NCBI RefSeq assembly: GCF_040954835.1
Contig: NC_090714.1
Coordinates: forward strand, 6,746,501 to 6,810,500
Direction: 5' to 3'
Source: Lepisosteus oculatus
Lineage: Eukaryota; Chordata; Actinopteri; Semionotiformes; Lepisosteidae
Length of the DNA: 64,000 nt
Shown: positions 14,354 to 56,700 of the stretch, one piece after another
Numbering within the stretch: position 1 is the first letter of the stretch
How the letters are laid out: the number at the start of each line of letters is the position of its first letter
Translations under genes and position numbers: made by a program
The notes under the pieces: generated by a model
The model's input: only the letters and a program-made list of their open reading frames with translations
Database searches by the model: none
What the model was told of the DNA's origin: nothing

Positions 14354-15963
14354 ATGATGGATGCAGACGCAGCGAGCGATTTCAAGATGGAAGCCGTGCG
14401 GATCAAAGAGGAGGTGGTGGATGAGGAGAGTTCAGAGACGTCGTGCCGTGAAGATGCCGCCGAGGTCGCCGAGCCAGGGCGCGCCGTGGGCGACGAGGGC
14501 TTCCCGGAGATGGAGTGCGTCACGATCAAGGACGACCTGGGGGGCACCTGTCGCATTTCTGAAAGATCCTCGTCGATTCGTTCCTGCAACGCAGGTCGAG
14601 TACCAAAAGAATGAGAGAGCGCTCGTTTGATAACACACTGCTGTGTGGCTGTTTCTTGCCTGTTATTTCGTGTTATCTGGAATCCTGCTACTTAACCCTT
14701 CCCCTGCGTCTCTCTGTCTGTGTCCCTGTAGATCTGGAAACGGATCGCTGCCAGTGCCCGCAGTGTAGCCCTTCCTGCCCGGGGCAGAAGACCCTTGGAA
14801 AGCACACACTGTCCCAACACGGGGGCCGTGCCGAGGCAGAGGACGGAGCGATGGGTCTTTCTCTGAGCTTGCCCGTCGTCAGCCCGGCTCTCCCTCCGCC
14901 GTCTCCCAGCAAGCCCGGAGATGGGGAGAGCCTCCTGACGTTCCACCACTGCCCGGAATGCCAGCGGAGTTTCCCGTGCGCGGACAGCCTGGAAGGGCAG
15001 CGGGGGGGCGCGGCCGGCCGCGGGGGTCCGGCAGAGGCGGCGGGGCCCCTCCGCCACTGCGTGAGAGGCGGGAAGACTTTCAGGCACAGGGGAGAGCTGG
15101 AGGCTCACCACAGGACGCCCACGGGAGACGCGCCCCACACTTGCTCCGTCTGCAGCAGGAGCTTCAGCCAGCTGGGCTCCCTGAAGCTCCACCAGAAGAG
15201 CCACTCGGGCGAGCCCCCCCATCACTGCGGCGGCTGCGGGAAGAGCTTCCGGCAGCTGCGGACCCTGAAGAGGCACCAGCTCCTCCACGCCGAGCCGCGG
15301 GCCCCCCACTGCGCGGACTGCGGCCGGGGGTTCGGGCAGCTGCGCGGCCCGCACGAGCACGAGCGCGCCCACGGCGGCGCGACCCTCTACATCTGCGCGG
15401 ACTGCGGGAAGAGCTTCCGGCAGTCGGGCAACCTGCAGAGGCACCAGCGGATCCACACGGGCGAGACGCCTTACCACTGCGCCGACTGCGACAAGAGCTT
15501 CAGCCAGCTGGGCTCCCTCAAGCTCCACCAGCGCAGCCACACCGGCGAGACGCCCTACCACTGCAACTTCTGCGAGAAGAGCTTCAGCCAGCTGGAGAAC
15601 CTCAAGAGGCACCGGCGGACGCACACGGGCGAGACGCCTTACCCTTGCACCGAGTGCGGGAAGAGTTTCAGCCAGCTGGGCAACCTCAAGGCCCATCTCC
15701 GCATCCACACCGGGGAGACCCCCTTCCAGTGCTCCGAGTGCGGGAAGAGCTTCAAGAACAAGGGCAACCTGAAGGCCCACCAGCGCATCCACACCGGGGA
15801 GACGCCCTTCCACTGCTCCGAGTGCGGGAAGAGTTTCGGCTGGCTGGCCGCCCTCAAGACCCACCAGCGCACCCACACCGGCGAGCGGCCGTACCACTGC
15901 GCCAGGTGCGGCAACAGCTTCACCTACTCCTACAAACTCCGCACGCACGCCTGCCAGGTGTGA
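14354..15963 (+). CDS. C2H2 zinc-finger protein (two coding exons)
   Basis: Exons 14354-14594 and 14732-15963 join through GCAG|GTCGAG and TCCCTGTAG in matching phase to give 490 residues, a probable DNA-binding transcription factor. ATG 14354 is the first in-frame start after an acceptor at 14329-14330. The N-terminal exon is acidic and carries [10 protein letters not shown], a sumoylation-like IKEE common in fish zinc-finger proteins. No KRAB or SCAN is seen. Exon 2 has one degenerate finger-like stretch near 14950, a second near 15055 (C-x2-G, no proper second Cys), then nine canonical C2H2 fingers from about 15141 to 15879. A last finger ends RTHACQV and lacks its final His. Many fingers share [10 protein letters not shown] or FSQLGNLK. 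Linkers are mostly TGETP instead of TGEKP. The gene cannot be named from this. Confidence 0.9.
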
Positions 15964-17618
15964 GCAGAGAGGGCCGGGGGGGTGGGGGTCACTGGCCCGT
16001 CTTGTACTGTATATGCTGGACGGTATGTGTACATATACCTGGGTTTTACCATCTCATTTAGGAAGAGAGAACCCAGTGTTTGTGAATCAAAAGGGTGAGG
16101 TCAAAGCGAAGTAAAAAAGAATGTAAAAATGTGAGAAATGACTCCACCACGTGCACTTTTCTAGTATTGCCGAAAGGAAAAAAGAAGACTACATAACTGC
16201 TGTTTCACTGGCTTCCAGAGGCCTGTGGGAGCAATAATACTCTGAGGCTTCACAGCACTGAAGGTTGGCGTGAGAGATTTGAGGCTGGATCCCAGACTGC
16301 TCTGGGGGTGACAGAAAGTGTCCCTTTTCTGATCATTTGCCCATTTCTGGGATGACAACAAGTGCCTCCTACCTGCTGTCCGGAACCTGTCTGCCAATTC
16401 CTTTTTTTCAGCTCTTCGTTTGTAAAATCCACTTCCACCTTTTTCTTCAGACTCCTGCCTTGACTTGTTGTTTCCCGAATTTCATTAGAACCCGGCTTCT
16501 CTTCTGCGAACAAGGGTCTGCTCTGCATCTTTTCAAGATGAGGGCCGTGAGATTTTCTGCCGTTTGTGTAATGTCGGTGTGAGAATTCCAGGTAGTATCT
16601 AACAACACTGCCCGGTGGCACTTATTTGAAATAACCGTTTGTCTCATCTTTGTTTGTTTCCTTGGTGAACCTGGTAATGAAATTGAGAAGCCACATTCCA
16701 CTGAGTCAGAAGAGATTAAGGTCCACATTCCTGACCGGCCAGCCCATATGTTCGATACACTCGGTGAATTTCAAGGGGAAAAAAAAGGCTATTTTTGTGA
16801 AAGGTACAAAAATAACATCTTGTTTTTCTCTGTCAAAACCTTGAAGCAAAGTTGAGCAAACATTAGTATTGATAAAAGAAACACAAATCTGAGCTTTGTC
16901 TTATTCAAGGAGGTCTAATCTTCAGAACATCATGTGGCTGCTCCTGCTCATTGTACAGTGTATCTTGTTGCCAGAGTTTCCTGCCGAGCTGCTGCATTGC
17001 AATTAAGCTTTCTCTTCAAGTTAAGGAGATCTTGTTACATTCTGTTGGAGGAAACGTAACTATTTTATCACAGAAATTAAGCATGAACTGCAGGTGAGTG
17101 CAAAGGCAGCTTTTATTTTTACAGAACTACTGTAGACGCAACATAACTCGAATGATCCCTTTTTAAAATTACCACAGTCCTTTTTTTCTGAAGTACGGAA
17201 ATTCAGATGGACATACAGTGCAGATCAGATCTCGCTTCAAATGCGAGTCCCCCCAAAATCCCGAAGACAAATCCAGCACTGCACATTCCCAGACTTCTTG
17301 TAGAGCAGGTTGTCTTCTTGGTCTGTTCTAGTGCCCTGTTTGTATAAGCAGTATGTGTAGCAGTGGGAGGATGTGGGATATACTGTATTGTACACACTAC
17401 AGGGAGGATATTCCAGGATAGTAGATACTGTAGGTCTGATCTGTTTGGGTGGAGAACAAATTCTTAAGATTAAACGGTTGTTAAACCTTAAACGGCTCTC
17501 CATTTATTTAACATAAAATACGGTTTAGGTGTATGACTTGGCTTGTTCAGAACAAGGCAGGTGTAATGAAAATGTTCTTCACTTAAACCGCTGTTTTTGC
17601 CACAACTGTAGAATTGTA
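15964..17618 (+). other. 3' flank / 3' UTR of the zinc-finger gene, no other gene
   Basis: AT-rich sequence after the TGA at 15961-15963. It presumably begins with the 3' UTR, but I could not place a convincing poly(A) site. No further open reading frame, RNA gene or recognised repeat is seen before the Tc1 element. Confidence 0.4.
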
Positions 17619-18157
17619 TACTGGAACAAAGAAACGCAACACCTCCTCCTCCACACTCTGGCCCTCCCGTCTGTGTGGAACAGGCTGAAGAGTGACTCAT
17701 CCGTGAAGAGGACCTGATGCCACCGCTGACGAGTCCATCGCAGCCCCTGTCTGGCCCAAGCCAGTCGGGTGTGACGTCTAGGAGGTGTGAGCAGAGGGCC
17801 TCTGACAGGTCGCCTGGCTCTAAGGCCAGCAGCATGGAGCCTCACTGTCCTGTCACCGACGCGGGTATTGTGTCTGCTGGCAGTTTCAGCAGCAGTACGG
17901 GTGGCAGATCCGAAACGATCTCTCAGATGGACCAGTCTGATGTGTCGGTCCTGCTCTGGCGTGGTCACTCGAGGGCGACCGGATCTTGGACGGTCATCTG
18001 TCCTGCCGGTCCGCTGAAACCTTCTCTGCAGTCGGGACACAGTGGAGCGGCTTATTCCATAGTGTCTGGCAACGCTGGCACATGACATGTCTGCCTGCAG
18101 CATACCAGTGGCCCTCTCCCTTGCTTCTGGTGACATTCGAGGCATTATGGAATGCAC
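17579..18157 (-). pseudogene. Truncated Tc1-like transposase
   Basis: This 192-codon frame starts MHSIMPRMSPEARERA. A paired-like HTH follows (SVARHYGISRSTVSRLQRR), then a second basic HTH region with GRPRVTTPEQD, and the start of the DDE core at VLFTDESLFSLF, which holds the first catalytic Asp. After GRARVWRR the frame continues into the terminal repeat and host flank, so the remaining DDE residues are missing. Full Tc1-family transposases are roughly 340 residues. There is no internal stop or frameshift before the deletion, so loss of function came from the deletion. Confidence 0.85.
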
Positions 18158-18440
18158 AGAAAACTGACTAAGTGTGGCCTTTTTCTTGCAGTGATCTAAG
18201 CTCTGAATAAGGCCTTTTTAAAGGTGACCTGATAAGGCATTGTTCCACCTGGACCTCGTTGGGTTAAAGTGCACCTAACGAGCTGTCGTGTGATTGGCAA
18301 GCTGCAGTGCCTCACTGCACAAGCTGTATTGTGCTGGTCAGAGGGCTCAAAACAAATTGACAACTTTTTGTGAAAGTACATAAGCTAGAACTATAGTATT
18401 CTCATTCCAGAAAATGTTGTGTTTCTTTTTTCCATCAGTA
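17619..18440 (-). mobile_element. Internally deleted Tc1-like DNA transposon
   Basis: The 822-bp element is flanked by TA on each side (17617-17618 and 18441-18442). Its ends are imperfect inverted repeats: left TACTGGAACAAAGAAACGCA, right the reverse complement of TACTGATGGAAAAAAGAAAC. Between them lies a minus-strand transposase frame that runs straight into the left terminal repeat. The part encoding the second and third catalytic residues is therefore deleted, with both ends kept. Such a non-autonomous copy could have been mobilised in trans. Confidence 0.85.
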
Positions 18441-23551: not shown

Positions 23552-24383
23552 ATGAGTCCGCGTCCTCCCGTCCCCCGGGAGCTGTGGCACTGCTTCCTGG
23601 GCCTCCTGGTGGCGGCGGCGGCGGTGCAGGGGGCGGCCAGCGAGAGCTGCCTCCTCATCAGCGAGGTCAACGCTGACAACCCAAGCTATGACTCCACTGA
23701 GTTTGTGGAGCTCTACCACACCAGCGGGCGCAGAACCAGCCTGGATGGCTACACCCTGGTCTTCTACAACGGGAACGGCAACCTGGCCTACAAGGTCCTG
23801 AATCTGGGCGGCAACGCCACGGACGAGCAGGGATTTTTCCTCGTGGGCTCGGCCGGCGTCAAGCCGCCGCCCGCCGTCGTCCTGCCGCCCAACACCGTGC
23901 AGAACGGGCCGGACGGCATCGCGCTGTACCACGGCGGGGCGCGCTACGCCGAGCGGATGAACGTGACCGCGGAGGGCCTGGTGGACGCGATCGTGTACAG
24001 GTCCCGGCGGGGCGGGGAGGCGGAATTCCTCGCCGAGGTCCTGACGCCAGGTTTCCCGGTCTTCCTGGAAGACGAGTCCCTGTACCAGCAGGATGAGTCC
24101 ATGGAGCGCTGCTGGCTGTTCGCCACCAACTGGACCTTCCAGACGGGCCCTCCGTCCCCGGGCCTCAAGAACCCCTGCGCCACGGGACGAGCGCGGGAGG
24201 CACAGATCAGTGAACTCAGCCTGGGGGAAGGCGTCTTTCTGGAGCTGAGCGTCCCCCAGCCTCCCAGCGCCCTGGTCCTAGCGCTCCTGAACGGGACAAC
24301 AGGGGCGGTGGAGTTCAGCATGGACATCAATGCCTCCAGAGCCGGGCTGCTTCTGATGTGCCCATCCGGATGCTCTCGGGAAG
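23552..24383 (+). CDS. LTD gene, coding exon 1: signal peptide, LTD1, start of LTD2
   Basis: ATG 23552 follows an acceptor at 23476-23477; the open frame further upstream is intronic. Residues 1-29 have a charged start and a hydrophobic core (CFLGLLVAAAAVQGAAS). LTD1 follows with LLISEVNADN, DSTEFVELYHTSGRR, SLDGYTLVFYNGNGN, FFLVGS, LPPNTVQNGPDGIALY and LVDAIVY, then a C-terminal extension with Cys (ERCW, KNPC). Sequons NAT, NVT, NWT and NGT are present. A second, weaker module starts at AQISELSLGEGVFLEL. The donor AAG|GTAGGC leaves phase 1. Confidence 0.88.
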
Positions 24384-27300
24384 GTAGGCCTTGTGAATCA
24401 CAACCTCCAGGTCATGGATTTTTGCCATCGGTGATGTTGAACGACTTGGATTTCATCCAGTCAGCTTTAGGTTATTTTAATTTTAATATGCCGGCCATAC
24501 GCACTTTCCACAATTCACACCCTGCTTTCCGGTCATTCTGTTCCATGCCCGCAGACACCGGACCACGCGCAAGTGTTGTTTTTGCATTGACATTGCTTGG
24601 CAGGATACGAAGGCTTTATGGTTGATGTTTGCCACGTATCATGGATTTTAATATGTTCTGTAATTTGCTGCATGGTTAATTCACAGATCAAGTGAATGGA
24701 GATGAATGGACCACGGATCAGTTTAGTCATAATATGTTTTTCAATATTCCTGCAATGCTGAAAAAACAGCTGGCTCACTTTTCAGTCTGGTAGTTTCATT
24801 ATGCAGGGAATGATTGCATCACTAAGATGACTGGAGTATCTTGGACGGTTGCAGATGCTGTGCTATTGCCCCCCAAAGCCGAGTCTGTGTTGAAGCAGCA
24901 GGGGTCGCTGTCGGGGGCGGTGGCGCTCTACAGCGGGATGGCCGCGGATTTCCCTCACGGGGCGCCCCTCAGCCCGAGGCAGCCGATCGACGCGTTCGTT
25001 TTCCTGGGAGAGGGAGGCGAGCAGGGTGCCAGCTTCGTCGAGACTCTCATCCCTGGCAGACAGGCCTTCCTTCTCACCAGCAGGTAGTCGGCCAACCGCG
25101 AGTGCGTGTGTCCATTACTGGTGTGAATCCACCCACCCCGCTTGTTTCTCGCCCTGACGCTCGCTCTGTTTGCTCAGGTCCCTAGGAGGGGGCGTGTCCC
25201 TGAGCCGCTGTGGCGCAGCGGTTTGGAGCAGGGACACGGAACTCTTTGTTGAAGCCCCTCCCACTCCAGGGCAGGCCAATCAGTGCTCGGGGGTGGAGTC
25301 ATGTCCACACAATGTAGGTGAGTGACTGTAGCCAAGAGCCCATTGCTGCAGGCTGTACCTGTTCTTGGTCAAGAAGGATTGATGTACCTATTATCAATCA
25401 GGTGTGCCTATAAAAAGCTGCCAGGAAAGGCTGTTTAATGCAGCTAATTATTAGGGGTGAAGCAGCAACTTCTATATGTAGAGCTCATATCATGCTATTG
25501 ATCTTTCTTGCACAAAATAGAGACCTCGGGGCTTCATTGCAAGCACCCTGTGTGTTGAGAGCCTCCGGAAACTCTCAGGAACCCCCTGATGGGGAGACTC
25601 AATGTGGGACTCAGAGAAATGAAGACAACTTGAGTGACATATGAGACCATATCACTCTTAGAAAGTTTGCCATGATGTACCCTGGTGAAAGTAAACTGAA
25701 ATGTTGCGAAGCACAGTGAGATTGTGGTAAAAACATAGTAAAGGCATGGATAGGCTTTGTCATGGTATTGCCTTTATATATGGTATTTTATTATATAGTT
25801 TTTAGTATATGGTTTTTACTCCACATAGGATTTGACTGATGTTATAACTCCACTTTGCTGCGAGATGTGCTTCAGATAGTAAACAAAACGTTTTAAACTA
25901 ATCTAGATGGGATATAGTGAAGATGTTTTTTTTAGAAATTAAGACATATGTAATCTTTCTAGTGACTTAAAACTAGCAATTTAAATAAATGCGTTCAGTG
26001 ATGTAGAAGTGATTATTGTGCTTTATTATTGTAACTGAAAGATGTGTAGGAACAAGTTTTGACTTAGCCTGCGCAGGCATGTCATGCCTGTGTCTGATCT
26101 TTAAGTCACGGGACCTCTTGCAGAATTAAGGGTGGAGTACAGCTGGCATCAATTGAATGATGGGAAGCCTAAGGGGGTTAAGGTATCTGAAGGTTGGTGC
26201 GCAGCCTGTGTGCTCAGCAATTCAAAGTGTATGCAGAGATTATACACTCATGGGGCCAAAATATTAGGGCCCCCCACTGACTTTAATGATCCGGATTTTC
26301 GGAGGACAGCAAGAGCAGTTTTGAACAAAATATGTAGCTCAATTCCCACCTCATTCTCCCACCAGGATCACCTCTACCTGTGCTACTGGTAAAGGATAGA
26401 GCACACTCCTCCAGATTGCAGCAGTACTGGGAACGGGGCATTGTTCAGACCAGTTGAGACAGCCAATTATTGCCTGTTGCCACAAACAGGAGCAGGGGGT
26501 TCCTAATAGTTTGGCCGGTGCCTGTAACATGACTTGCAATGAAACTGCAGCTGGAAATTGAGACGCTTCTCCACTGCACGCTCCTGTCACCTTGCTGAAG
26601 GACGACAGTGCAGTGTTAGTATGACAGGAGACATTTCCACCCACATAAAAGCTGCTGCTGTAGCAGACTTGACCTCACTGGTGCATAAGTAGCAGATGCG
26701 CAAAGAGGTGAGTTTCATGTTAGAAACCAGAAATCGGCAGCAGCCAGTCACACTGATACTCGGATTCTGGAAAAAATGTTTGATGTGTACTGTAGGTAGG
26801 ATGCTCATTGGCTTCCAGCCCTTGTCCTAGCAAAACAGTGTCTGGTGGTTTTCAATTCTGCTGAGCTCTAAATCTCTCATGCTTCTTTATGGCTTAAATG
26901 ATCTGCTCAGTTGTTTAGACTTTTACTTAATTTAATTCCCTAAAACACATAACTTGAAGGGTGCTATTACCATTAACTTCAGCACACAGACCTTTTTGCA
27001 GCAAATCCTCATCTTAATGGCCATTATTTCTGACTCAACAGCTTTTACTAGCGAACTAGAAGACAAGTGTTCCTCCAGGACCAGGGCTAACAAACACTGA
27101 AGTCATTCCTAATTTTTTACCCAGTGACTTCTTATTGAGGATTTTATTTGTAAGGGTGCGTGTAGCTTGCTGCTACATCCCATGTAGTTTTGGAAGGAGG
27201 TCAGTATGTGGAGTTATGCCCAGAACCTATGGTCCACTCAGGATGTCCGAGAATGCACTATGGCCACAGTGTGTCATGTCATTGCAGTATTTTTAAAATA

Positions 27301-30300
27301 ACTTCAGCGAATTTTGCAATAAGGGAGTGGCATCAGCTGTTATATAAAACAGCTACAGTATAAGAACCACTAGGGAAGTCCTCAAATCCGGACGTCATTG
27401 TTTGTTTTTAATCGGAGAGTTTGGATTGTGTAAACATGAAAAAAACTAGGATCTCCGATTGGTGGCCATCAGTCAACAAAGCAAACGGTTCGAAGGCAAT
27501 AAAAATGAGCATCACAGAGAACACGCACCACCAGACATAAGCCTCTTTAGAAGGCTTAGTGAAACCCCTATCAGGAGCTATGTTTAAGGTAATCCATCAT
27601 ACAACTGCTAGGGAATCTAGTTATAATTGAGATTACTTCCTGGCACCTTGGATGGTAGACTGAGGTGATGGGCGTTTCTTAAATTGAAGTGAACCGTTGC
27701 AGAATGTAGTACGATATGAGAGTGCCTGATTGCAAGTCACTGGGTCCGTCTGAATCTGGCAGCTGCTCTGAGATTCGTTTCACTCCCTGATGACCTCTGA
27801 ATGCTCTGGGGGGGGGGCTTGCTTCCTGGTTCCTGTGGCGCTAAACCAGCAGCCGTCTCTTTCCGCACAGTCGTCCCGGAGAGTACAGCGGCACCTCCGC
27901 CGCTGCCCCCCAGCCCCAGCCCCGCCGGTTACCAGGACTTCCTGCTGAGCGAGGTCAACTCGGACACCCCCGGCGCCGCCGAGGACCGGGAGTTCATCGA
28001 GATTTGGCACCCCTCCGGCCGGCGGGTCAGCCTGGATGGGATCTGGCTCCTCCTCTTCAACGGCAACGACGACAAGCCGTACCGCCAGATCAGCCTGCAC
28101 GGCTACTTCACCGACGCCCGGGGGTACTTCCTCCTGGGCAGCCACCAGATGAGCCCCCGGCCCGCCATCCGGCTGCCGCCCAACACCGTGCAGAACGGCC
28201 CGGACGCCGTGGCCCTGTACCGCAGCCCCCTGGGGCCTCCCGTCCCCAAGGAGGGGGGAGCCATCCCCACTAAGGGTCTGCTGGATGCCATCGTGTACCG
28301 TGGGCTGAGGTCCGATAAGGAAGCCCAGAATCTGAGGGACGCGCTGACTCCTGGGCAGGTGCCCCTCCTGGAGGATCCGGACTTCAGCCCCGAGGATGAG
28401 TCTCTGAGTCGCTGTGGCAGCCTGCTGCCTGCAAACCTTACCGCCTTCCAGGTGAGTCTCGCGGCTCAGCCCCCTCTCCGTTCGGCTCCTGGCTTAGGCG
28501 TTGGACTGCAAGCTGTCCGTTACCTCCGTGGAAGCATTTCTGCCCTCGTTGCGTCCATTAGGAAAGACGGAATAACCCAGTGACCCAAGCAAGGCCATCC
28601 TTCGAGGGGTGCTGTCGGGTTCCCCCAAAATGCAAGGGGAGTTAGGAGGAAAGGGAGGCCCCAAAAGTTTCATACCCCCCATGCCGGTGTGGAGTGCAAG
28701 ATGAGTTGTTCAGGGTGCTCGATGATATTAGAGGTACCTGGGAAAGGAAAGTAACTCCCAATGCGTTTCATGAAACGATGCCTCTGGGTTTGAGGACTGA
28801 GGCTGGTGAACGCCTTGTCCTGCCGTCTCAATTAGGAGCCATCGAACGGCGAAGGTGCTGCCCATTCCTGGAACCAACAGCACTGATCGCATTTGTAATG
28901 TCTCTCGGTATATGTGCTCCCCCCGTTCATATCCACTCTGTGGGTGACAGGGCCTTTTGTTGATGTGCCTCTAGCTCTGGAACACTATCCCAAAAGACAT
29001 GGCCCACTCAACCATACAGGATGCTTTTCACTCTAGCCAAAAATACGGCATTTCCTGACAGCTACCTTTTTAGCTGTGGAATCTTCTTTTCTTTCATGAC
29101 CTTCATGTTGTGTGCTGTGAAGCACTTTGAGATGATTGCTTTTAAAGCTCCCATAAAAAATAAAAATGAGCTTTTATTATTTGAAAAAACAAGGGAAGGA
29201 GATGAGAGGATTCTTGGGCAACTTGGAAAAAGCTGTATCATACAGTATGTGGGCCTTTCCCCAACGTGGAAGGTTTATGAGCTTCTCCCGAATAGTTTAG
29301 TTGTGAGTTTGGTGCAGCTCGCTCTTGCATGTCATGAAAATGGGTGCGATACTGGGGTGTTCCCAGCTGGCCTGGCCCGTGGTCTGCTCAGCGCAGTGCT
29401 GATGAGCTGCTGCTCCGTGTCTCCTAGGTGACCCCCCTCACCCCTTTGAAAAAGAACGCCTGTGGGTCTCGCACAACCCCTGAGCCCCCTCTCCAGGTCG
29501 TCATCAACGAGGTATCTGCCAGCTGGACCAACGGCAGCCAACAGGAGGCCTTTGTGGAGCTGGTGACGACCCCCCACGCCAGGCTGCAGGGCCTGACTCT
29601 GCTGCTGTTTGAGCAGGGGCACAACAGCGAACCCCTGGCCGTCCCTCTGAAGGGGTCGGCCAGCTCAGACGGGCTGTATGTCCTTGGGAACACCAGCAAC
29701 GCAGGTGAACTCTCGCTCGTGTACAGTATGTCTACCTGAGCGCCTCCTGTTGACTCTCACATTACGTGGAAGTTTACCTACAACAAATAGTATCAGATTT
29801 ATGAACCAACTGGTTTATAAAAGCTGCCATCTGCACATACAAGTGCACACAAACGATCATGCCACTGATTGCAGATGCAGAATTGTCCCACATGCATGCC
29901 TGGCGACATAGACAAGGTGATGATGTGTCAGAAGCCATACTTAACCTCACAGACACCCGGAGTGCAGGCTAGGGGACCAGATGCTCCACTTGTTGCCCTC
30001 GTTGGGGATAAAAATCTGCCACAGATATTATGACAACCTTCACCCAAAATCTCTGAGTCATGCAGGTAATCGGGCTACTCGAGAGTGAACGACGGTTTTC
30101 AGGAACATAAAACCCCTTCTCTTCTCTCCAGATCAGACCCTTCCCATCAGCCCCTCTAGGGCATGGAGAGCTGTGGCGCTGTACCAAGGCTATTTCCAAA
30201 CGGCTCGAGCACGCCTAATAGACGCCGTGGTGCTCGCCGAGGACCAGGAGCTGTTGGAGAAGCTCAACACCACCAGCGGGCAGCACATGTTGTCTGTGCT

Positions 30301-33300
30301 CAGGTGAGTGTTGACTTGAGAGTAGAAAAGCATATGGGGAGTAAGGTTTATAAGTTCATAAGGGGGCATAGCAGTTAGAAATGCTGATAATGCTTGAAAC
30401 AAGAACAGAAATCTGATTTGTAAACGGAGTGGGTACCATTGAAGCTATTGGCAACAAAGCAGGAGCTACTGGAAAGATGAATTGTTTTATTTCATGTTAG
30501 GTTTATTTCCATACAGATGTTCTTATTTGACTCCTTAATCGGCTAATTAAGTGGAGACTTATTTAAGGTTCATGTTAGTTGCAGGCTTATTGGGCATGCT
30601 CAATCAGGTTTTCTCTCTGTGGGATACCAGTCTGGCCTTGCTGAAGGAATTTCATAAGAAAGGCGAATCTGGGAATTGGAGACAATCCAGGCTAGCTCTT
30701 GCAAAACCTCCCTCTCTGTGCCTCTCAGCTCAATGAAGGAGCCTGTCTCTCTGAGCCGCTGTTCCTGCTGTGAAGTGAGAAACCCTCACGTTTGGATTGC
30801 CTCAGGCCAGACCCCAGGGCAGGTCAACCACTGTCCTTCCTCTGGCTTCTCCAGTGAGCTGGTTCTCTGTCTCGGGCCCAAGACCAACAGGCTCTGGCAG
30901 CAGGTACCAGGTAAATACAGCTGATTCAGGTGGCAATTGAAATATTTTTGGTCTTAATAAATTGCCTAGGCAGGCTGTTATAGCTTGTGATGGAAGATGC
31001 TTCTTCAAAATATAGTACATAGACTAACTTTTAGCCAAGTGGCTATTTGATGTGGCTTTCATTGTAGTTGCATCTTGAATGGTTTAATTGGACTCATTGT
31101 TTGCTGAATTTGTTCTTGATCAAAATCACACCTCTGCTAACTTAATTTGCACTGTGGAGCGTCTCCCTCTTTGTCTTTACCTGTTATTCCTTTGCATGAG
31201 ATTAACAGTGACTGACTTGTGTTTGAACACAAAGGACGGATTAAGCATTTGCCCTGTTTCACATCACGTACTTAACATTAGTTGTACAATACAGAGTTTT
31301 GTCACCTTTTTGGATTTCCAGCAGTGGCATCCCCGTAATTCAGTGAGATGTCCTGAACCCGGAGTGGTACAGATGTCTTCCCCAGAGGGCCGGCCTACAA
31401 TGAGTTGTTGTCTCTTTCTCTGCAGGTTGTGCTGCTCCGGGGCAGAAGAATGAGAGTCTCCGGGAAATGCAGAGTGAGATAGCCCAGTTCCTGGAGGAGT
31501 CCTGTCACTGCGGGATCTCAGGCCTGTACCTGCAGGGTGAGGGCGCGTCGCTCTGCACCCAAAGGCCTAGAGCAGGGGTTCCCAGTCCTGGTACTGGTGA
31601 CCCACCCACCTGCTAGTTTTCATTCCATCCCACCATCATTAGATCATTGAACTTGCTTGATTGGAATATTTGCATTTTCTTTCTACTCACAAGTTTGGGA
31701 GTTGTGTCTCTCCGTACATCAGTTAAAGCTCCGACATTATTTAAATTAATCTTTATCACTATGACTACTAAAGGGGAGCTGTATTGCTATTTTTATATAG
31801 AAAGAATCAGCATTGATTCATGCATTTCAAACTGCAATGAAAGTATAATTTACATATCGACTTTGAGACAAATCACGTGGTTCACATGGGAACATTTCTG
31901 CGGTGAAATGTCCGATGCACGACCTGTACGCATGTGATCACATTAGTCATTACAGTGACTAGTGAGCAGGAAGGGCCACATCACATCACATCTCGTGGGA
32001 ACTCGCGCTCTGGCCCATGGTCAGACCAGGGGTTTGTGACAACATGGCGACTCACAGGACTTTCACAAAGTTCGCGATTTTGTGCTTAATTAGCAATTTG
32101 TACATTTTTGCAATACCGTCTATTTTGTTAACAAGATTTAATAACTGGTCTGAGAAACTGGGACTGCAGTTCCTCTTGAAGTGAAGGAATTGTTTGATTG
32201 TGTAACTGAGGGCTCCTGTGTGGGTCACCAGGACCAGTATTGGGAACCACTTGTGTAGATCAGCACTCATCAATGTGTTTCCCACGTTGATGAGCTTCCC
32301 CCATTTTATTGTACCTTGCTGTGGTTCAACCCAAAAGAATCTGCATGGAATGATGACAGGGCAGAAGACATGCAACACAATAGCTTAATCTGTGATGGGC
32401 AATGTATTCCTAAAACAGCACACACTCTTAGATCATTCAAGTCTTCAAGCTGTGCATCCTGACCTCCTAAAACAAAGGCAAGTGTCAAACCAAGGCACAA
32501 ATGTTTACAGAGCCTGGTGATGATAGTCTTTTGCTAGATGGCATTCTGTTTTTGCAGCTGCTGTGTGATGGCGGAGGTCCTGATCCGTCAGTCTTGTGCA
32601 GGAGTCATTACACACGGGCATGTCTCGTCGGTGACATCCTGATTGGCGCTGTAAGATCTCAGAGGTGCACCAGTGGTGCTTCTGTGACTTCTGAAGGCGT
32701 GTGCAACGTCCTGGTGGGGTGTTCCAGAAGTATTTGAGCAGATCCAATGTTTGATTACGCTCATCATTGGACAGTAAGGTATCACTTTGTGAGGCACAGG
32801 GATTCTTGTAAATTTATGATCGCTTGAGGTCTTGGGTCTTCTTAAAGAAGAGGTATTGGTGAGGCCAGTAGGGGGTGGTCACCCTGCGGTCTGTGTGGGT
32901 CCTAATGCTCCAGTATAGTGACAGGGACACTGTACTGTAAAAAGGTGCCATCCTTCGGATGAGACGTAAAACCGAGGTCCTGACTCTCTGTGGTCATTAA
33001 AAATCCAAGGCTGTTTCTCGAAAAGAGTAGGGGTGTAACCTCGGCATCTTGGCCAAGTTTCCCATTGGCCCTTACCAATCATGGCCTCCTAATAATCTAA
33101 TCCCCATGAATTACCTTCATCACTCTGTTCTCCTCCCGACTTGGAGCTGGTGTGTGGGGAGTGTACTGGTGCACTGTGGCTGCTGTTGCATCATCCAGGT
33201 GGGGCTGCACATTGGTGGTGGTGGAGGGGAGTCCCCATTACCTGTAAAGCACTTTGAGTGGAGTTTAAGGAATTATTATTCTCTTTCCACAAAACAACAG

Positions 33301-36300
33301 CATACATTTAGGAACACTGTCAAGAAAAGACATGGGCACAAATGAGATTCTGGCAAAAAAACACTCATTGTTTGTACTCTCTTTTATACCATAGTTTTAA
33401 GTCATCAGTCACAATGAATTTTATTTTGTGACACACGGAAGTGGTACAAAATCCTCATCACGTGTTTTCGTTACCAACAGAGACAAATATTTCCTGTGAA
33501 GACGGCTTGCTACATGTGAGTGGACAAATCCAAGGGCTGTCCGCAGACCAGAGAGACCTCATCCTCAAGACCACTAGCGCCCTGATGCTGAAAGACAGCT
33601 GTACTGAAGTCACCATGGAGAAGTTTCAAGCCAGAAGTAAGACGTCGCTTCGCTGGCCTCCTGAGCCTGTTTGTCAGAATTGCCCAGAGTGGTCCTCTCT
33701 AGTAATGAGAAGATAAACAGATGAGATCAGAAGGGTTGCCAACAAGTGAAGGCCGTTCAGCCTCATTTACCCTGGTTGGTTTTCAGGAGCTAATTAATCC
33801 AAGGATATCATCCAGAGGTTTACTACCAACAAAACAAGATGGCTGTATAGTTTCCTCTGATTTGCAACGTATCGTAATTTATTTTGGGGTATTATTTGTA
33901 CATTTTTTCCCAGTGTGGGTTGATCTGAATCGTAGTAAAGGATAACACAGATTTTCATGTGAGCTACTGGTGTTGCAGTAGGTAAACGGTGCTTCTGTGC
34001 ATGCATTACAATAAATAAACTACCCAGTGGGTATTATTCACTACAATTGAATTCCTCTTTTGTAACTTACAGACATCCACTAGGTGGTACTGCAAGCTTT
34101 CACAAGAATTGTAACGATCAATCATGCAGGGGCTTTTCTTCGTGTTTAGCCCAGTGAGAACATTATTTTTTTGAAATATACCTGTCTTTATTGAAAATTA
34201 AAAGTTCAAGCTATGTACTGAAGAGCTACTTTCACATTGGATAAGGTGATAGCTACCCTGCTATTGAAAAGATGTAAAAGTGGGACGCCCAACTGACTGA
34301 GCTCGTAGCAGTGCCGTGCAGTCCAGACAGCACTGGCTCAAGTGAGTCATGTTCCTGACTCCTCCTGAGTCTGTCTGTGAGCGATGGGGTATGGTAGAAT
34401 TCCCCTGATGGGGCGATCCCAGGTATTTGGGCACACCTGCAGATCTCTTGCTTGCCTTCAGAGCAGAAGGCCTGGGTTGGAAAGCCTCCCCAGGATCAGG
34501 TGGAGCAGAGAACTACAGCTCTGAGCCCTTTGTGCGCTGTTTCCTCTTCAGAGGCCGGGCTGGGCTGGGAGATTGCACTGATCATAATCGTCCTCTTGAC
34601 CCTGGGGCTCGGGGCAGCCCTGGGCACCTACTGGTACAGAAAGAGGTGAGTCCAGCCAACACCATGGCAGCAGATGTCAGCTGGTTGCGGTGTTTCTTGT
34701 TTTAAAGCTGTTTCCTGCCCGATGACACAAGAAGAGGCCTCTTGTGCACCTACAGTAACTGACCCATTCTTTGACCTCAAGAGACGGCTTTTTGTGGCTC
34801 CCCTTTCTCCCAGTGTAACTCTCCTGCATATTCTGTGACCTAATAACTAGCATAAAGAGCTTAGGACTCATGCAAGGCTGTAGAGTACAGTATATACTGA
34901 TGTTACTCCTCTGCAAGATCCCTGATGGTTTTCTATTTTGCAATGACAAGTCATTTTATTTAGCATGTCTAATAGGTTTAGCATTAAGATCTTGTTGGGA
35001 CAGAGCAGTCTGATTGCTCAGAGGTGTTCCTGATCTGGGATCATGGGAACATGTTACATTAGCTTGCCTTTAAACATTTAGGTCACCAAACCCTTTCTGG
35101 TTATTCTCAAAAAAGGCAGCGAGTCCTAGATGACTCTACATTATCTTTATTAATAAAAAAAGTACTTTTAATAGCTCTTTAAAGAAAATATGCAGCCCCA
35201 GGGCAGGCTCACTCCTGCCCAAGAACAGGGTTGAGAATTTAGCAATATTTGGATCTATATGACTCATTGATACAATATCCATTCTCTTTTTTTTGTAGAG
35301 ATCTGTGTATAACGCAGGTGGAAATGATCTGATTAAAAATGTCAGAATATGTGCTCCTGAAACAGGGCAAGTCAAAAACAAAAAGGTTGTTTCCACCTCG
35401 CAAAACATTTAAAGTGATGCGTGTTGGCACTGACCGTGCTGACTGAGAAATTCCAGAGTTACGATATCGAGAGAAATTGGTTAAAAGTGAAAGCTGCCAG
35501 AGGTGCCCCAGTCCTCAGCTGTCAGCTTCCCGCTGTCTCTCCTGTCTCCTTTTCACAACCGAAACACTTTCATTTCATTTTGCAGCTTCAGTGGACTCTG
35601 CCTTGTTCTGTTCTGTAGTCAGGCAATTCTTTAAAGGGCAAAACCAATGGGAATAAAAATTATACAAGAAATAAACGTGGGCACAGTATCAGTGTATGAA
35701 GACGACATGTTTTTAATACATTCAGCCTTATCGTTCATATCTATTGCTATCAAAGTACCAGCATATCAGCATTTTTCTAGCATGTATGGGTATAAAGGAT
35801 CGTGCATCTTTAAAAGTGCAGTGCCTTCTGAAGTACATAAAAGTGTACAGATAGATGCAGATCAAATACCAAACTGTAGCATAAGATAACAAAATTGTAA
35901 TTGTACCCAGTGCATGATTCTCTAACACCAGATGGCTCTTTACTGCCAGCTTGTGTGAAGCCATCATAGGTGCCATTCCAAATGGCGTTCTATTTAGAGG
36001 CTGTACTTGCAGGAGTAACGTCATAAAGTCCCATCTTTGTTAAGTAGATGTTACCAGCTCCATTAACAAACCCTCCTTTCCAAAAGCGTATGCTCTACAG
36101 CATGCAGAGAAGGATCGGTCGGCCATAATGGATATTGGTATCTCAAACAACAGCATGTTAACTCTTACTAGCACTGCTGTGTTTGCTGTTGAGATAATGT
36201 ACTGTAGCGTTACCTGGTCATGCTCAACTCTGGGATAAACGCCTAACCCTGTAATATTGTAGAGCCAGGATGAGTCAATCTGGCCCCTCCTTGTGTTGAC

Positions 36301-36625
36301 TGGGCCTGGGCTTGCGTGTGGAGGTGTGTGAACAGCATCAGATTGGGCACAGGTAGCTGAGATCTGAACTGCACTGACATGCCGAGAAACGCCTTGTGGC
36401 ACAGTGCCTAGCATTTTGAGAAAGCATTTTTTTTCTCAGAAATCGTGGACTATTCGCAGACAGAAAACAATGAAACGACAACCTTCGCAGTCCTATAGAA
36501 GTTCTTGCCAGAAAAAAAGTTGTTAGTGTTCCACTGTTTGCTTTTTCCTCCACAGGCGTCCCCACAACTACTCCACCATCGAGCTGAGCGAGCAGGCAGA
36601 GGGGGAAGGGGAGTTTGATCTTTAG
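23552..36625 (+). CDS. Type I membrane protein with four tandem LTD-like modules
   Basis: Eleven coding exons join without one phase conflict into 948 codons: 23552-24383, 24855-25083, 25178-25317, 27871-28451, 29428-29704, 30132-30303, 30729-30910, 31426-31536, 33481-33636, 34552-34645, 36556-36625. Order: signal peptide (about 1-29), LTD1 (31-209), diverged LTD2 (about 216-395), LTD3 (about 408-605), LTD4 (about 610-755), Cys-containing stalk (about 756-893), membrane helix (about 900-920, IALIIIVLLTLGLGAALG), basic stop-transfer YRKRR and a short acidic tail with NYSTIEL. LTD1 and LTD3 show the hallmark SEVN, EF(V/I)E(L/I), SLDG and F-N-G-N. LTDs are known from lamins; here the modules would face outside the cell. 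Several N-glycosylation sequons support that. Ligand and role are unknown. I cannot give a trusted symbol. Confidence 0.88.
24855..25317 (+). CDS. LTD gene, coding exons 2-3: rest of diverged LTD2
   Basis: Exons 24855-25083 and 25178-25317, separated by a 94-bp intron. They encode the middle and end of LTD2: SGAVALYSG corresponds to the GIALYHG step of LTD1, and DAFVFLG to DAIVYR. SLSRCGAAVW and PPTPGQANQC form the C-terminal Cys extension. Entry is phase 1, internal phase 2, exit phase 1 using AATGTAG|GTGAGT, the only donor in phase with the next exon. Confidence 0.82.
25318..27870 (+). other. LTD gene intron 3 (2.55 kb), no gene seen
   Basis: No convincing exon. It holds a GCCTGCGCAGGC palindrome with a nearby GCATGTCATGCCTG near 26068-26092. 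Near 25665-25760 there is ATGGTA-rich sequence resembling 21540-21670. Confidence 0.5.
27871..28451 (+). CDS. LTD gene, coding exon 4: LTD3
   Basis: Acceptor TTCCGCACAG, donor CCAG|GTGAGT. It encodes a Pro-rich linker, then LTD3: DFLLSEVNSD, DREFIEIWHPSGRRVSLDG, LLLFNGNDD, GYFLLGSHQM, RLPPNTVQNGPDAVALY and LLDAIVYRG, followed by DESLSRCGSL. It is the closest relative of LTD1, sharing an exact LPPNTVQNGPD. The exon ends in phase 0 after LTAFQ. Confidence 0.87.
28975..29170 (+). mobile_element. LINE 3'-end fragment (L2-like)
   Basis: The plus strand reads LWNTIPKDMAHSTIQDAF then, after a stop, KYGIS: the decayed C-terminal end of a non-LTR reverse transcriptase (the usual LWNxLP motif). A 3' UTR-like segment with TGAAGCACTTTGAGATGATTGC follows, shared with the L2-type end at 40.37 kb. 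It lies in the intron before LTD gene coding exon 5. Confidence 0.6.
29428..29704 (+). CDS. LTD gene, coding exon 5: end of LTD3 and first half of LTD4
   Basis: Acceptor TGTCTCCTAG, phase 0. It completes LTD3 (the KKNACG Cys) and begins LTD4: LQVVINEVSASW, EAFVELVTTPHARLQGLTLL, GLYVLGNTSN. The INEV start and FVEL strand are classic LTD positions, although LTD4 lacks the FNGN and PNTVQNGPD signatures. Donor GCAG|GTGAAC, phase 1. Confidence 0.82.
30132..30910 (+). CDS. LTD gene, coding exons 6-7: end of LTD4 and start of the stalk
   Basis: Exons 30132-30303 and 30729-30910. The first carries AWRAVALYQGY and ARLIDAVVLAED, equivalent to the ALY and DAIVY strands of the other modules. The second starts SSMKEPVSLSRCSCCE and continues WIASGQTPGQVNHC, the same C-terminal extension as LTD1-3 (SRC-x-n-PG-x-n-C). 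Phase 1 in, 2 between, 1 out. Donor CCAG|GTAAAT at 30911 is preferred to GTACCA at 30904, because only the former keeps the next exon open. Confidence 0.82.
31426..33636 (+). CDS. LTD gene, coding exons 8-9: juxtamembrane stalk
   Basis: Exons 31426-31536 and 33481-33636. The sequence is helical and Cys-containing: QSEIAQFLEESCHCGISGLY, then ETNISCEDGLLHVSGQI, LSADQRDLILKTTSALMLKD and SCTEVTMEKF. The alternation of strand and helix just outside the membrane is reminiscent of a SEA-like or stalk domain, but no family motif fixes this. The intron between them contains an hAT-like element and a 5S SINE. Confidence 0.75.
31571..32262. mobile_element. Non-autonomous hAT-like DNA transposon
   Basis: Imperfect terminal inverted repeats: left GGGGTTCCCAGTCCTGGTAC-TGGTGACCCACCC from 31571, right its near reverse complement ending GGGAACCACTTGT (32213-32254 region). 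The ends are about 690 bp apart and nothing between them codes. Imperfect 8-bp candidate target duplications flank it (CTAGAGCA / GTAGATCA). The GGGGTTCCCA start and 8-bp target fit the hAT superfamily. It sits in an LTD-gene intron. Confidence 0.65.
32853..33285 (+). mobile_element. 5S-derived SINE3-like, copy 2 (5'-truncated)
   Basis: Matches the 19.6 kb copy from GGTGAGGCCAGTAGGGGGTG to the GCACTTTGAGTGGAGT tail, but lacks the 5S-related head and has a small deletion at the 3' end. Shared words include TCCTTCGGATGAGACGTAAA and CTTACCAATCATGGCCTCC. Located in the intron between stalk exons of the LTD gene. Confidence 0.85.
34552..36625 (+). CDS. LTD gene, coding exons 10-11: membrane helix and cytoplasmic tail
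   Basis: Exon 34552-34645 encodes EAGLGWEIALIIIVLLTLGL (the first residue becomes K after splicing), then a Gly/Ala stretch and YRKR. Exon 36556-36625 encodes RPHNYSTIELSEQAEGEGEF and the last residues DL, and stops at TAG 36623-36625. YSTI fits the Yxx-phi endocytic/sorting motif. The tail is acidic and ends after about 25 residues. Splice sites AAGAG|GTGAGT and CTCCACAG are strong and in phase 2. Confidence 0.85.
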
Positions 36626-40935: not shown

Positions 40936-41236
40936 AATAATAATAATTATAATTGCTTACACTTATAAAGCGCTTTTCTTGACACTCCACTCAAAGTGCT
41001 TTACAGGTAATGGGGACTCCCCTCCACCACCACCAGTGTGCAGCCCCACCTGGATAATGCGACAGCAGCCAGAGTGCACCAGTACGCTCCCCACACACCA
41101 GCTATCAGTGTGGAGGAGAACAGAGTGATGAAGCCAGTTCATAGATGGGGATTATTAGGAGGCCATGATTTGTAAGGGCCAATGGGAAATTTGGCCAGGA
41201 CACCGGGGTAACACCCCTACTCTTTTCGAGAAATGC
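40936..41236 (-). mobile_element. 5S-derived SINE3-like, copy 3 (truncated)
   Basis: The reverse complement matches the 3' two thirds of the 19.6 kb copy: GGGTGTTACCCCGGTGTCCTGGCC, the CATTGGCCCTTAC block, GGGAGTCCCCATTACCTG and the CTTTGAGTGGAGTGTCAAG tail with ATT repeats. The 5S head is absent. Confidence 0.85.
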
Positions 41237-53710: not shown

Positions 53711-56700
53711 GTAAATTTCTATTCATTGTCATCTGTACTTTCAGTAAAGTGTTAATCAGTCACCTGTCTTTCAGATGAGATATTAAACTGAGGTCCTGGC
53801 TCTCAGTGGTCATTAAAGATCCCCGGACATTTCTCGAGAAGAATAGGAAGTTATACCAGTGTCTGGGCCAAAATCCACCCCTCGGCCCTTACTGTGGCCT
53901 CCAAATTGTCCCCATGTGTGATTGGCTTGCACTTGCCCTGCGATGGACTGGCGTCCTGTCCAGGGTGTACCCTGCCTTGCGCTCGTTGCTTGCTGGGTAG
54001 ACTCCGGCTTTACCACAACACCGTATGGTATGAAGCGGTTTGGTAAATGACATGACATGACATTAATCAGTCATTCCATGATCTCTTTTTGAGTGTTAAT
54101 TTGTGATTTAAAAGGAAACTGCGTATCATTTCCAGCTACAGTTAAGAGACCTTGAGAAGGTCTTTAACATGTGAAACACAGAATAACAAAGGTCATACCA
54201 AATACACTTTTTAACGACTGTGAGAACGTTTTACCTGTCCTCGCAGAAGAGCTGAGAGATGACGCTCGCCACGCAGATACAGTGAATTGACCGTGTTTGA
54301 AATGAAACCAGCCTGACCCCTTGCGTTCTGCAGGTGTTTGGATTAACAGATACCGGAAGCAGCTGGTGAGGTCCATCTCGGGGCCCTTCCTGGAGAACAT
54401 CGTGAGCCACATGAGGAAGCTGGAGCTCCTGAGTAAGGACGAGGCCTGCCAGATTCAGGCCGCCGGCCACGTGTCTGAGAAGGTGCGCACGGTCATCGAC
54501 ATCCTGGCCTTGAAGGGACCCCAGGGCTCCGAGTCGCTGCAGGCCTTCATTGAGACCACCAACTCCCAGCTCTACCTTCTCATCACGCTGTATGGTGAGT
54601 GGGGCTCACAAAGGGGAGTTTGCTCTCTGTTTCAATGGGGTATTCAATTGAGCTATATTTTAAGCAACAGAAAAGGAGAATTCTGGTTGAACACTGACCT
54701 TCGCTGGAGAAACGGGTGTCCCGATTTCTTACCACCCTCCTCCGCAAGCACAAAGGATTGTTTCGGCCTTCTGACAGAATGTGGTCGGATTTGACCGACG
54801 TCTCTTCTCTTCTGTGTTCAGACCCGATGGTGCAGAAGCACGTGGAGGTGCTGCAGAGCCGCTACGGGCCCTGGCTGGAGCAGAGCCTGCTGCCGATCAA
54901 GCCTTCCCTCGACAACTTCACCAACCTGCTGCTGGTGGAGGGGCTGTCGGACCTCCAGCAAAAGGAGCACGATGTCATGCAGATCGAGGCCACCAGAGGA
55001 ACCGGGAGACACAATGCCAGGAGGCTGGCCCTGGACAAACTGCTGCTGCCTCTCACCAGGGTGAGCATGCCCCCTCGGATCCTGTTGACTGTGGGAGTGG
55101 CGGGCATCGGGAAGACCAACCTGGTGAGACACTTTATCCACCACTGGGCCAAGGGAGAGATCTACCAGGAAGTGAACTTTGTCTTTCCCTTCACCTTCTG
55201 GGAACTCAACGCCTACGAGAAACTATCTGCTGAGCGGTTGATAAAGCAGACGTTTCCCCACATCGCTGACGTGAGCCAAATCTTCAGTGGCACTCCTCGC
55301 GTCCTGCTGATTTTTGATGGGCTGGATGAGTTCAAGTGGCCGCTGGACTTCTCGGACACCGTGGCTTGTACGGATCCCAAGAAGGAGGTCCCTGTGGACA
55401 ACCTCATCACCAACATCATCCGGGGGAACTTGTTCTCTGAGGCCTCTGTCTGGCTGACCTCTCGGCCCACAGTAGCAGCCCAGATCCCTGGGGGCCTAGT
55501 GGACAGGTTGACCGAAATCCAAGGTTTTGGACATAAAGACATCCAGCATTTCCTACAGCAGCTTTTCCAGGATGGAGACCTGCCTTCGCAGATTTGGTCC
55601 CACCTGAACTCCAACAAGATCTTCCTGGTGATGTCCTACGTGCCCTGCGTTTGTTGGATCATTGCCTCCACCCTTGGACACCTCCTGAGGAATGACACGC
55701 AGGATGGCTTGCCCAGAACGTGGACCGAGCTCTACTCTCACTTCTTCAAGATGATGGTGGAAGGGGATTCCAAGGATAAGGAGCCCTTAAAGATTGAACA
55801 AGCCAGCGGGAGCAGTCGGAAGCTGATGGGCAGCCTGGGGCGATTAGCCTTTTACGGGCTGATCAAGAGGAAGTACAGCTTCTATGAGCAAGACATGAAG
55901 GCTTATGGGATTGACCTGCCTTCCTTACAAGGCAGTCTTTGCACTCGCATCTTAGTAAAGGAAGACTCCCCAGTCTCCACAGTCTATTACTTTGCCCATC
56001 TCACACTCCAGGAGTACCTGGCGGCCACCTACTACTACACGGCCTCGAAGCGCGCTATATTTGATCTGTTCACGGAGAGTGGGATGTCCTGGCCCAAAAT
56101 AGGCTTCCAGAACCACTTTAAAAATGCTCTCCAGAGGTCCCAGCAATCCGAGGATGGACAGCTGGATGTTTTTGTCCGCTTTCTCTCCGGCCTGCTCTCC
56201 CCCCAGGTGATCAAGCCCCTGTCTGGACTGCTCTTGCTGGCCAGGGACGAGCACAACGGCTACCGAGGTCCCGCCATCTCCTTCCTGCAGAGCAGCCTGA
56301 GCTCCGGCTGCACCATCTCCCTGCGGGCCGTCAACATGGTGCACTGCCTCCAGGAGCTGCAGCACACGGAGCTGGCCCGGACCGTGGAGGAGTCGCTCCG
56401 CAACGGCAGCCTGGCAGGCAAGCTCAACACCGTCAACTGCTCGGTGCTGGCCTACCTGCTGCAGGTGTCGGAGGAGTGCGCAGAGGAGACCAACCTGTCC
56501 AGCTGCCTCAACTACAGCATCGTCAAGAGCCTGCTGCCGCAGCTCCTCTACTGCAGCAATCTCAAGTAAGCCCATGGGCAGGGTGTAGGGGGTGGGAGGA
56601 CGGGGTATATTATACCAAAAAAGACACCCCGTGCAATACAGAGCTCGTTGATTGATATGGTCATTTTAACCCTTGCAACTTGACCAGAGGTAATTGGAGG

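Follow-up and report, generated by a model that had tools for sequence, protein, structure and literature searches.

Whether lamin tail domains (LTDs), familiar in animals chiefly from nuclear lamins and related filament proteins, whose tail they form, can also build the outside of a cell-surface protein is the question raised by a gene on the forward strand of a 64,000-nucleotide stretch of the Lepisosteus oculatus genome (assembly GCF_040954835.1, contig NC_090714.1, positions 6,746,501 to 6,810,500). We refer to this whole stretch as the window and number all features within it. The gene, at 23552-36625, is predicted to encode a surface protein with four tandem LTDs, a reading supported by its sequence, the logic of its exons and the modelled fold of the first domain.

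The gene has 11 exons and 10 introns, every intron is bordered by GT-AG, and the exons join in phase with no internal stop to give a frame of 963 codons plus a stop (2892 bases). An earlier note on this DNA had also described eleven exons joining in phase, but its product of 947 residues was 16 short of the 963 found here. The same note had read four LTD repeats in the product, and a profile of about 178 positions built from 27 bacterial rows bears this out, finding four LTD copies in the joined protein with a score of 309.5 bits. We name these D1 to D4, with D1 and D3 designated as A-type and D2 and D4 as B-type. Within the joined protein the individual domains scored 133.8 (D1, profile positions 2-178), 110.7 (D3, 3-175), 35.6 (D4, 2-178) and 24.4 bits (D2, only 88-178), while the best-domain scores of the isolated domains were 139.6, 116.2, 41.3 and 28.5 bits in the same order. 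E-values from a run on such a handful of sequences are uninformative and shuffles are the better control; among 2500 residue shuffles per domain the top scores were 9.4 bits for D1, 4.1 for D3, 5.3 for D4 and 5.1 for D2. The Pfam LTD family (PF00932) also placed the joined protein above its cut-off (45.8 vs 34.3 bits) through two matched stretches, D1 and D3. Cut out alone both of these fell under that cut-off (30.7 and 16.1 bits respectively) and neither D2 nor D4 alone gave a match at E up to 1. A Pfam LTD search of the same genome (1.2 Gb) for paralogues returned D1 as its sole match, and as it missed the gene's own D3 it does not show that paralogues are absent.

The exon chain was read from genomic sequence alone and D2 and D4 are strongly diverged, both of which would fit a decaying gene or a false chain of exons. 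Scanning all six frames of the raw window with the bacterial profile (stop-free pieces of at least 20 residues, E up to about 1) does not depend on the exon model and gave LTD matches on the forward strand at 23651-24172, 27942-28418, 29497-29721, 24911-25012, 25200-25280 and 30170-30283. These correspond to exons 1, 4, 5, 2, 3 and 6, those in exons 3 and 6 being weak (8.0 and 5.9 bits), and the match at 29497-29721 overruns the end of exon 5 by 17 bases. Nowhere in the window did the scan find an LTD match outside the exons of the model, and exon 7, which holds the end of D4, had no match of its own. With the bacterial-profile matches confined to exons, all eleven exons phase-consistent and stop-free, and the introns of D2 corresponding to those of D4, decay or a false chain is very improbable.

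To which branch of LTDs these domains belong was addressed by scanning prokaryote genome contigs, a set of 84,980 species with one genome each, for relatives of D1. Of 279 candidate stretches 165 were relatives; the best 80 of these were kept and the first 34 of those studied, some of the proteins being cut at the ends of the fetched DNA. Seven of the 34 (L008, L017, L020, L023, L025, L028 and L035) were excluded from the profile and from the alignment used for fold prediction (A4), leaving the 27 rows. Many of the 34 match almost the whole of D1, and the 27 rows share 34-42% identity with it in the fold alignment. Pfam (E up to 0.001) identified LTD in 29 of the 34, Exo_endo_phos in 19, Exo_endo_phos_3 in 11, Endonuclease I in 2 and a type IX sorting tail in 17, and the NCBIfam model NF033681 (ExeM/NucH) matches the nuclease part of relative L029. 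Human lamin A (its sequence entered by hand) reached 1.7 bits on the bacteria-only profile vs 139.8 for D1, and PDB sequence searches returned no lamins with either D1 (E up to 10) or the A4 profile (E up to 1). Because of the identity to the bacterial rows, the lamin A score and the absence of lamins from these searches we place the domain by sequence among the secreted bacterial LTDs rather than on the lamin branch, with bacterial LTDs and lamins as the comparison set.

Lamins are nuclear proteins with a coiled-coil rod and a CaaX end. In the gar protein Pfam finds LTD only, with no filament domain, and there is no CaaX end, so that a lamin-family derivative in which the tail of a nuclear lamin was transferred to the cell surface is, together with the lamin A score and the PDB searches, disfavoured and the least probable of the explanations weighed here. 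The earlier identification of the domain as an LTD stands, but its emphasis on lamins was misleading, as the sequence sides with the secreted bacterial LTDs and the domain is longer than that of lamins. The Pfam LTD model spans 109 positions vs about 178 conserved in the bacterial domain and, at E up to 0.001, misses 5 of the 34 relatives (L003-L036); it seems that the extended LTD has no family model of its own.

Kinship with nuclease-bearing proteins did not extend to a nuclease in the gene itself, as a Pfam search of the joined protein (E up to 1) returned no nuclease family, and exon 1 alone scored 13 bits to ExeM in NCBIfam vs a cut-off of 1300 and falls outside ExeM/NucH. Among mobile elements, no viral relative was confirmed among 330 pattern matches, phage records gave no match and two plasmid records had partial matches, one of them annotated ExeM/NucH.

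The four domains are laid out over the first seven exons. Exon 1 holds the start codon and a signal-peptide-like hydrophobic segment (residues 1-30, 23552-23641), the whole of D1 without an internal intron (residues 31-209, 23642-24178) and the first part of D2 (24179-24383, donor phase 1). The middle of D2 lies in exon 2 (24807-25083, phase 2 end) and its end, up to 25286, in exon 3 (25178-25317), where an Arg-Cys...Asn-Gln-Cys end is followed by a linker. Exon 4 (27871-28451) carries a Pro-rich linker and most of D3 (residues 433-610), which reaches residue 622 in exon 5 (29428-29704); there D3 ends at 29463 and the first part of D4 begins. The middle of D4 is in exon 6 (30132-30303, phase 2 end) and its end, up to 30834, in exon 7 (30729-30910) together with the start of a juxtamembrane module.

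D1 and D3 are 44.9% identical and the remaining domain pairs 23.6-27.2%. D2 and D4 hold two introns each. The second lies in the identical alignment column in phase 2; the first, of phase 1 in either domain, is shifted by six columns between them, within a stretch where D2 carries an insertion. D3 has one intron, near the domain end and in phase 0. The D3-D4 unit is bounded by phase-1 introns (introns 3 and 7), which fits a duplicable unit, and we therefore read the arrangement as the probable duplication of an A-B pair into A-B-A-B, a pairing that rests on intron positions. In a tree of D1-D4 with the 27 bacterial rows D1 and D3 were joined at 94/23, which is not firm, and D2 and D4 had very long branches; given these branches and the 18 of 28 inner branches left open, the tree identifies no gene-transfer donor and does not resolve the A-B pairing.

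Conservation follows a similar division. Among the 46 columns at least 95% fixed in the bacterial rows, 36 are kept in D1, 34 in D3, 24 in D4 and 21 in D2. A QNG-D patch and a second early Asp are retained in D1 and D3; of the patch D2 has just Q and G, and D4 lacks it altogether. An Arg-Cys and a further Cys just beyond an Asn close the domain in all four copies vs 4 of the 43 bacterial domains scored, which suggests that a disulfide may lie at each domain end.

With regard to topology, the hydropathy profile has a hydrophobic stretch at the beginning and a single strong membrane helix near residues 917-938 (approximately 34572-34637, in exon 10 at 34552-34645), and a further 19-residue window at residue 228 inside D2 barely exceeds the threshold (1.49 vs 1.4). 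The cytoplasmic tail in exon 11 (36556-36625, including the stop codon) has 25 residues, contains YSTI (36569-36580, read from the sequence), which we take to be a YxxPhi-type sorting motif, and ends EFDL. Twelve N-glycosylation sequons are present, eleven before the membrane helix and one in the tail. Hydropathy thus supports a predicted type I topology of signal peptide, ectodomain, one helix and tail, in agreement with the signal peptide, single helix and short tail proposed earlier. An ectodomain built only of LTDs, as had also been proposed, is refuted by residues 796-916, a separate six-Cys juxtamembrane stretch continuing through exons 8 (31426-31536) and 9 (33481-33636) in which the searches made recognised no LTD. 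This stretch had no Pfam match and only chance-level matches in a PDB sequence search; it may resemble SEA-like modules.

The fold of D1 predicted from alignment A4, bacterial rows included, is a beta-sandwich with the features of a lamin-tail fold. A single-sequence fold of exon 1 was uninformative (predicted local distance difference test score, pLDDT, 34.6).

What might such a protein do? Building on the computed exon chain, four domains, kinship with secreted bacterial LTDs and introns common to D2 and D4, we tentatively favour a single-pass type I surface capture receptor that carries duplicated A-B pairs of extended bacterial-type LTDs on a Cys-rich module. The A modules (D1 and D3) would bind an extracellular ligand, the B modules (D2 and D4) would act as spacers or offer an altered binding face, and the short tail with YSTI could carry bound material into the cell. 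Bacterial LTDs often occur on secreted DNases, and the DUF4876 genes of the family of PDB entry 4q1z accompany a TonB-dependent receptor in iron-dependent clusters, according to the available part of PMC10434189; from these we infer capture of outside substrates as the common thread.

A number of observations weigh against this capture receptor. Each of the four domains has an acidic pI (4.5-5.7), evidence against plain electrostatic binding of DNA that led us to downgrade DNA binding as the principal interpretation. In vivo, ExeM lacking its LTD removed DNA nearly as well as the wild type (PMC6085458), so that the LTD is dispensable even in this nuclease. A motif of only four residues such as YSTI commonly arises by chance. 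The fold prediction for D1 used bacterial rows in its alignment, and a Foldseek search with the resulting model found nothing in the PDB at E up to 0.001, with 4q1z ranked 15th. D2 has almost the same identity to D1 (25.3%) as to D4 (27.2%), and D2 and D4 were not joined in the tree, leaving the A-B pairing to the introns.

A more specific role as a receptor for extracellular nucleic acid, retaining a possible job of the LTD on secreted bacterial nucleases, draws on the frequent nuclease fusions among the bacterial relatives, on the slowing of ExeM in vitro when its LTD is deleted (in the accessible portion of PMC6085458) and on the proposal that halophilic DNases use their LTD as an additional means of binding DNA (PMC4486849). 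That proposal, as far as the available text of PMC4486849 goes, is founded on association and not on binding data, clearance in vivo hardly needs the LTD (PMC6085458) and all domains here are acidic, so that we regard this role as unlikely. We give even less chance to the fuller scenario in which animals acquired a bacterial-type domain independently of the lamins, pairing and duplication made it into A-B-A-B and the product now forms an endocytic receptor for nucleic acid or another microbial polymer.

Adhesion is a close second to the capture receptor. As an adhesion protein the four-LTD rod would engage neighbouring cells, by homophilic contact or through another partner, with the tail serving only to anchor or sort it, which is possible given the four tandem domains with a predicted beta-sandwich in D1, the eleven extracellular sequons, the paired Cys closing each domain and B modules that have drifted like spacers. 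However, the searches made gave no homologue with a known adhesive role, and no cytoskeletal binding motif was recognised in the short tail, though no dedicated motif search was made. We retain the capture receptor as our working interpretation.

Elsewhere in the window, a gene at 54306-56569 (forward strand) encodes CARD and NACHT domains with a NOD2-type winged helix and an NLRC4-type HD2 by Pfam, and has the appearance of an ordinary NLR-type innate immune gene; its match to the fish-specific FISNA is weak (18.9 bits, below the 28.1 cut-off). A C2H2 zinc-finger array lies at 14563-15963 (forward strand) and a Tc-type transposase fragment with HTH_Tnp_Tc3_2 and helix-turn-helix matches at 17579-18217 (reverse strand). 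An interspersed repeat is present in two copies of opposite orientations, at 33014-33272 in intron 8 of the LTD gene and at 40976-41233 downstream of it, with arms of 167 and 84 bases that are 90% and 92% complementary.

The gene would represent the extracellular branch of LTDs, retained in a membrane protein of an animal with little change from the bacterial form. The role of LTDs has been called not yet elucidated (PMC6085458, in the part available) and the identity of the ligand would tell what the extended LTD does, with a bearing on how LTDs reached eukaryotes (PMC5630835, likewise in part). An open-access literature search, mostly at the level of listed records, turned up no described protein of such architecture. 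An octopus mucus proteome contains seven proteins with a lamin tail domain (PMC10138644), the available part of which does not state whether they are of filament or extracellular type. Off-topic or unclear as parallels were an LTD protein in octopus mucus, an SMP-LTD protein in shark sperm, a flatworm filament protein and a tsetse lamin.

Among known systems, eukaryotic proteins with an LTD-like domain and no coiled coil, as here, exist and are not direct lamin relatives, and no surface receptor is described among them in the available part of PMC5630835. The nuclear lamin Ig-like tail (1ifr, 3gef, 3umn, 2lll) has in common with D1 a beta-sandwich core of about 100 residues, but in most rows the lamin alignments end near D1 residue 120-125 and the D1 domain is longer. 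The nearest solved structure to D1, by structural match, is the DUF4876 protein BT_1938 of Bacteroides thetaiotaomicron (4q1z), which differs in its 12% identity in the alignment and in its 389-residue chain with other parts; the Pfam search of the joined protein (E up to 1) returned no DUF4876. Also close are the secreted bacterial LTD proteins (PF00932), many with EEP-type nucleases, which have the domain of about 178 positions and in some cases at least two copies of it, whereas the gar protein has no nuclease domain and combines its A-B pairs with a membrane anchor and tail.
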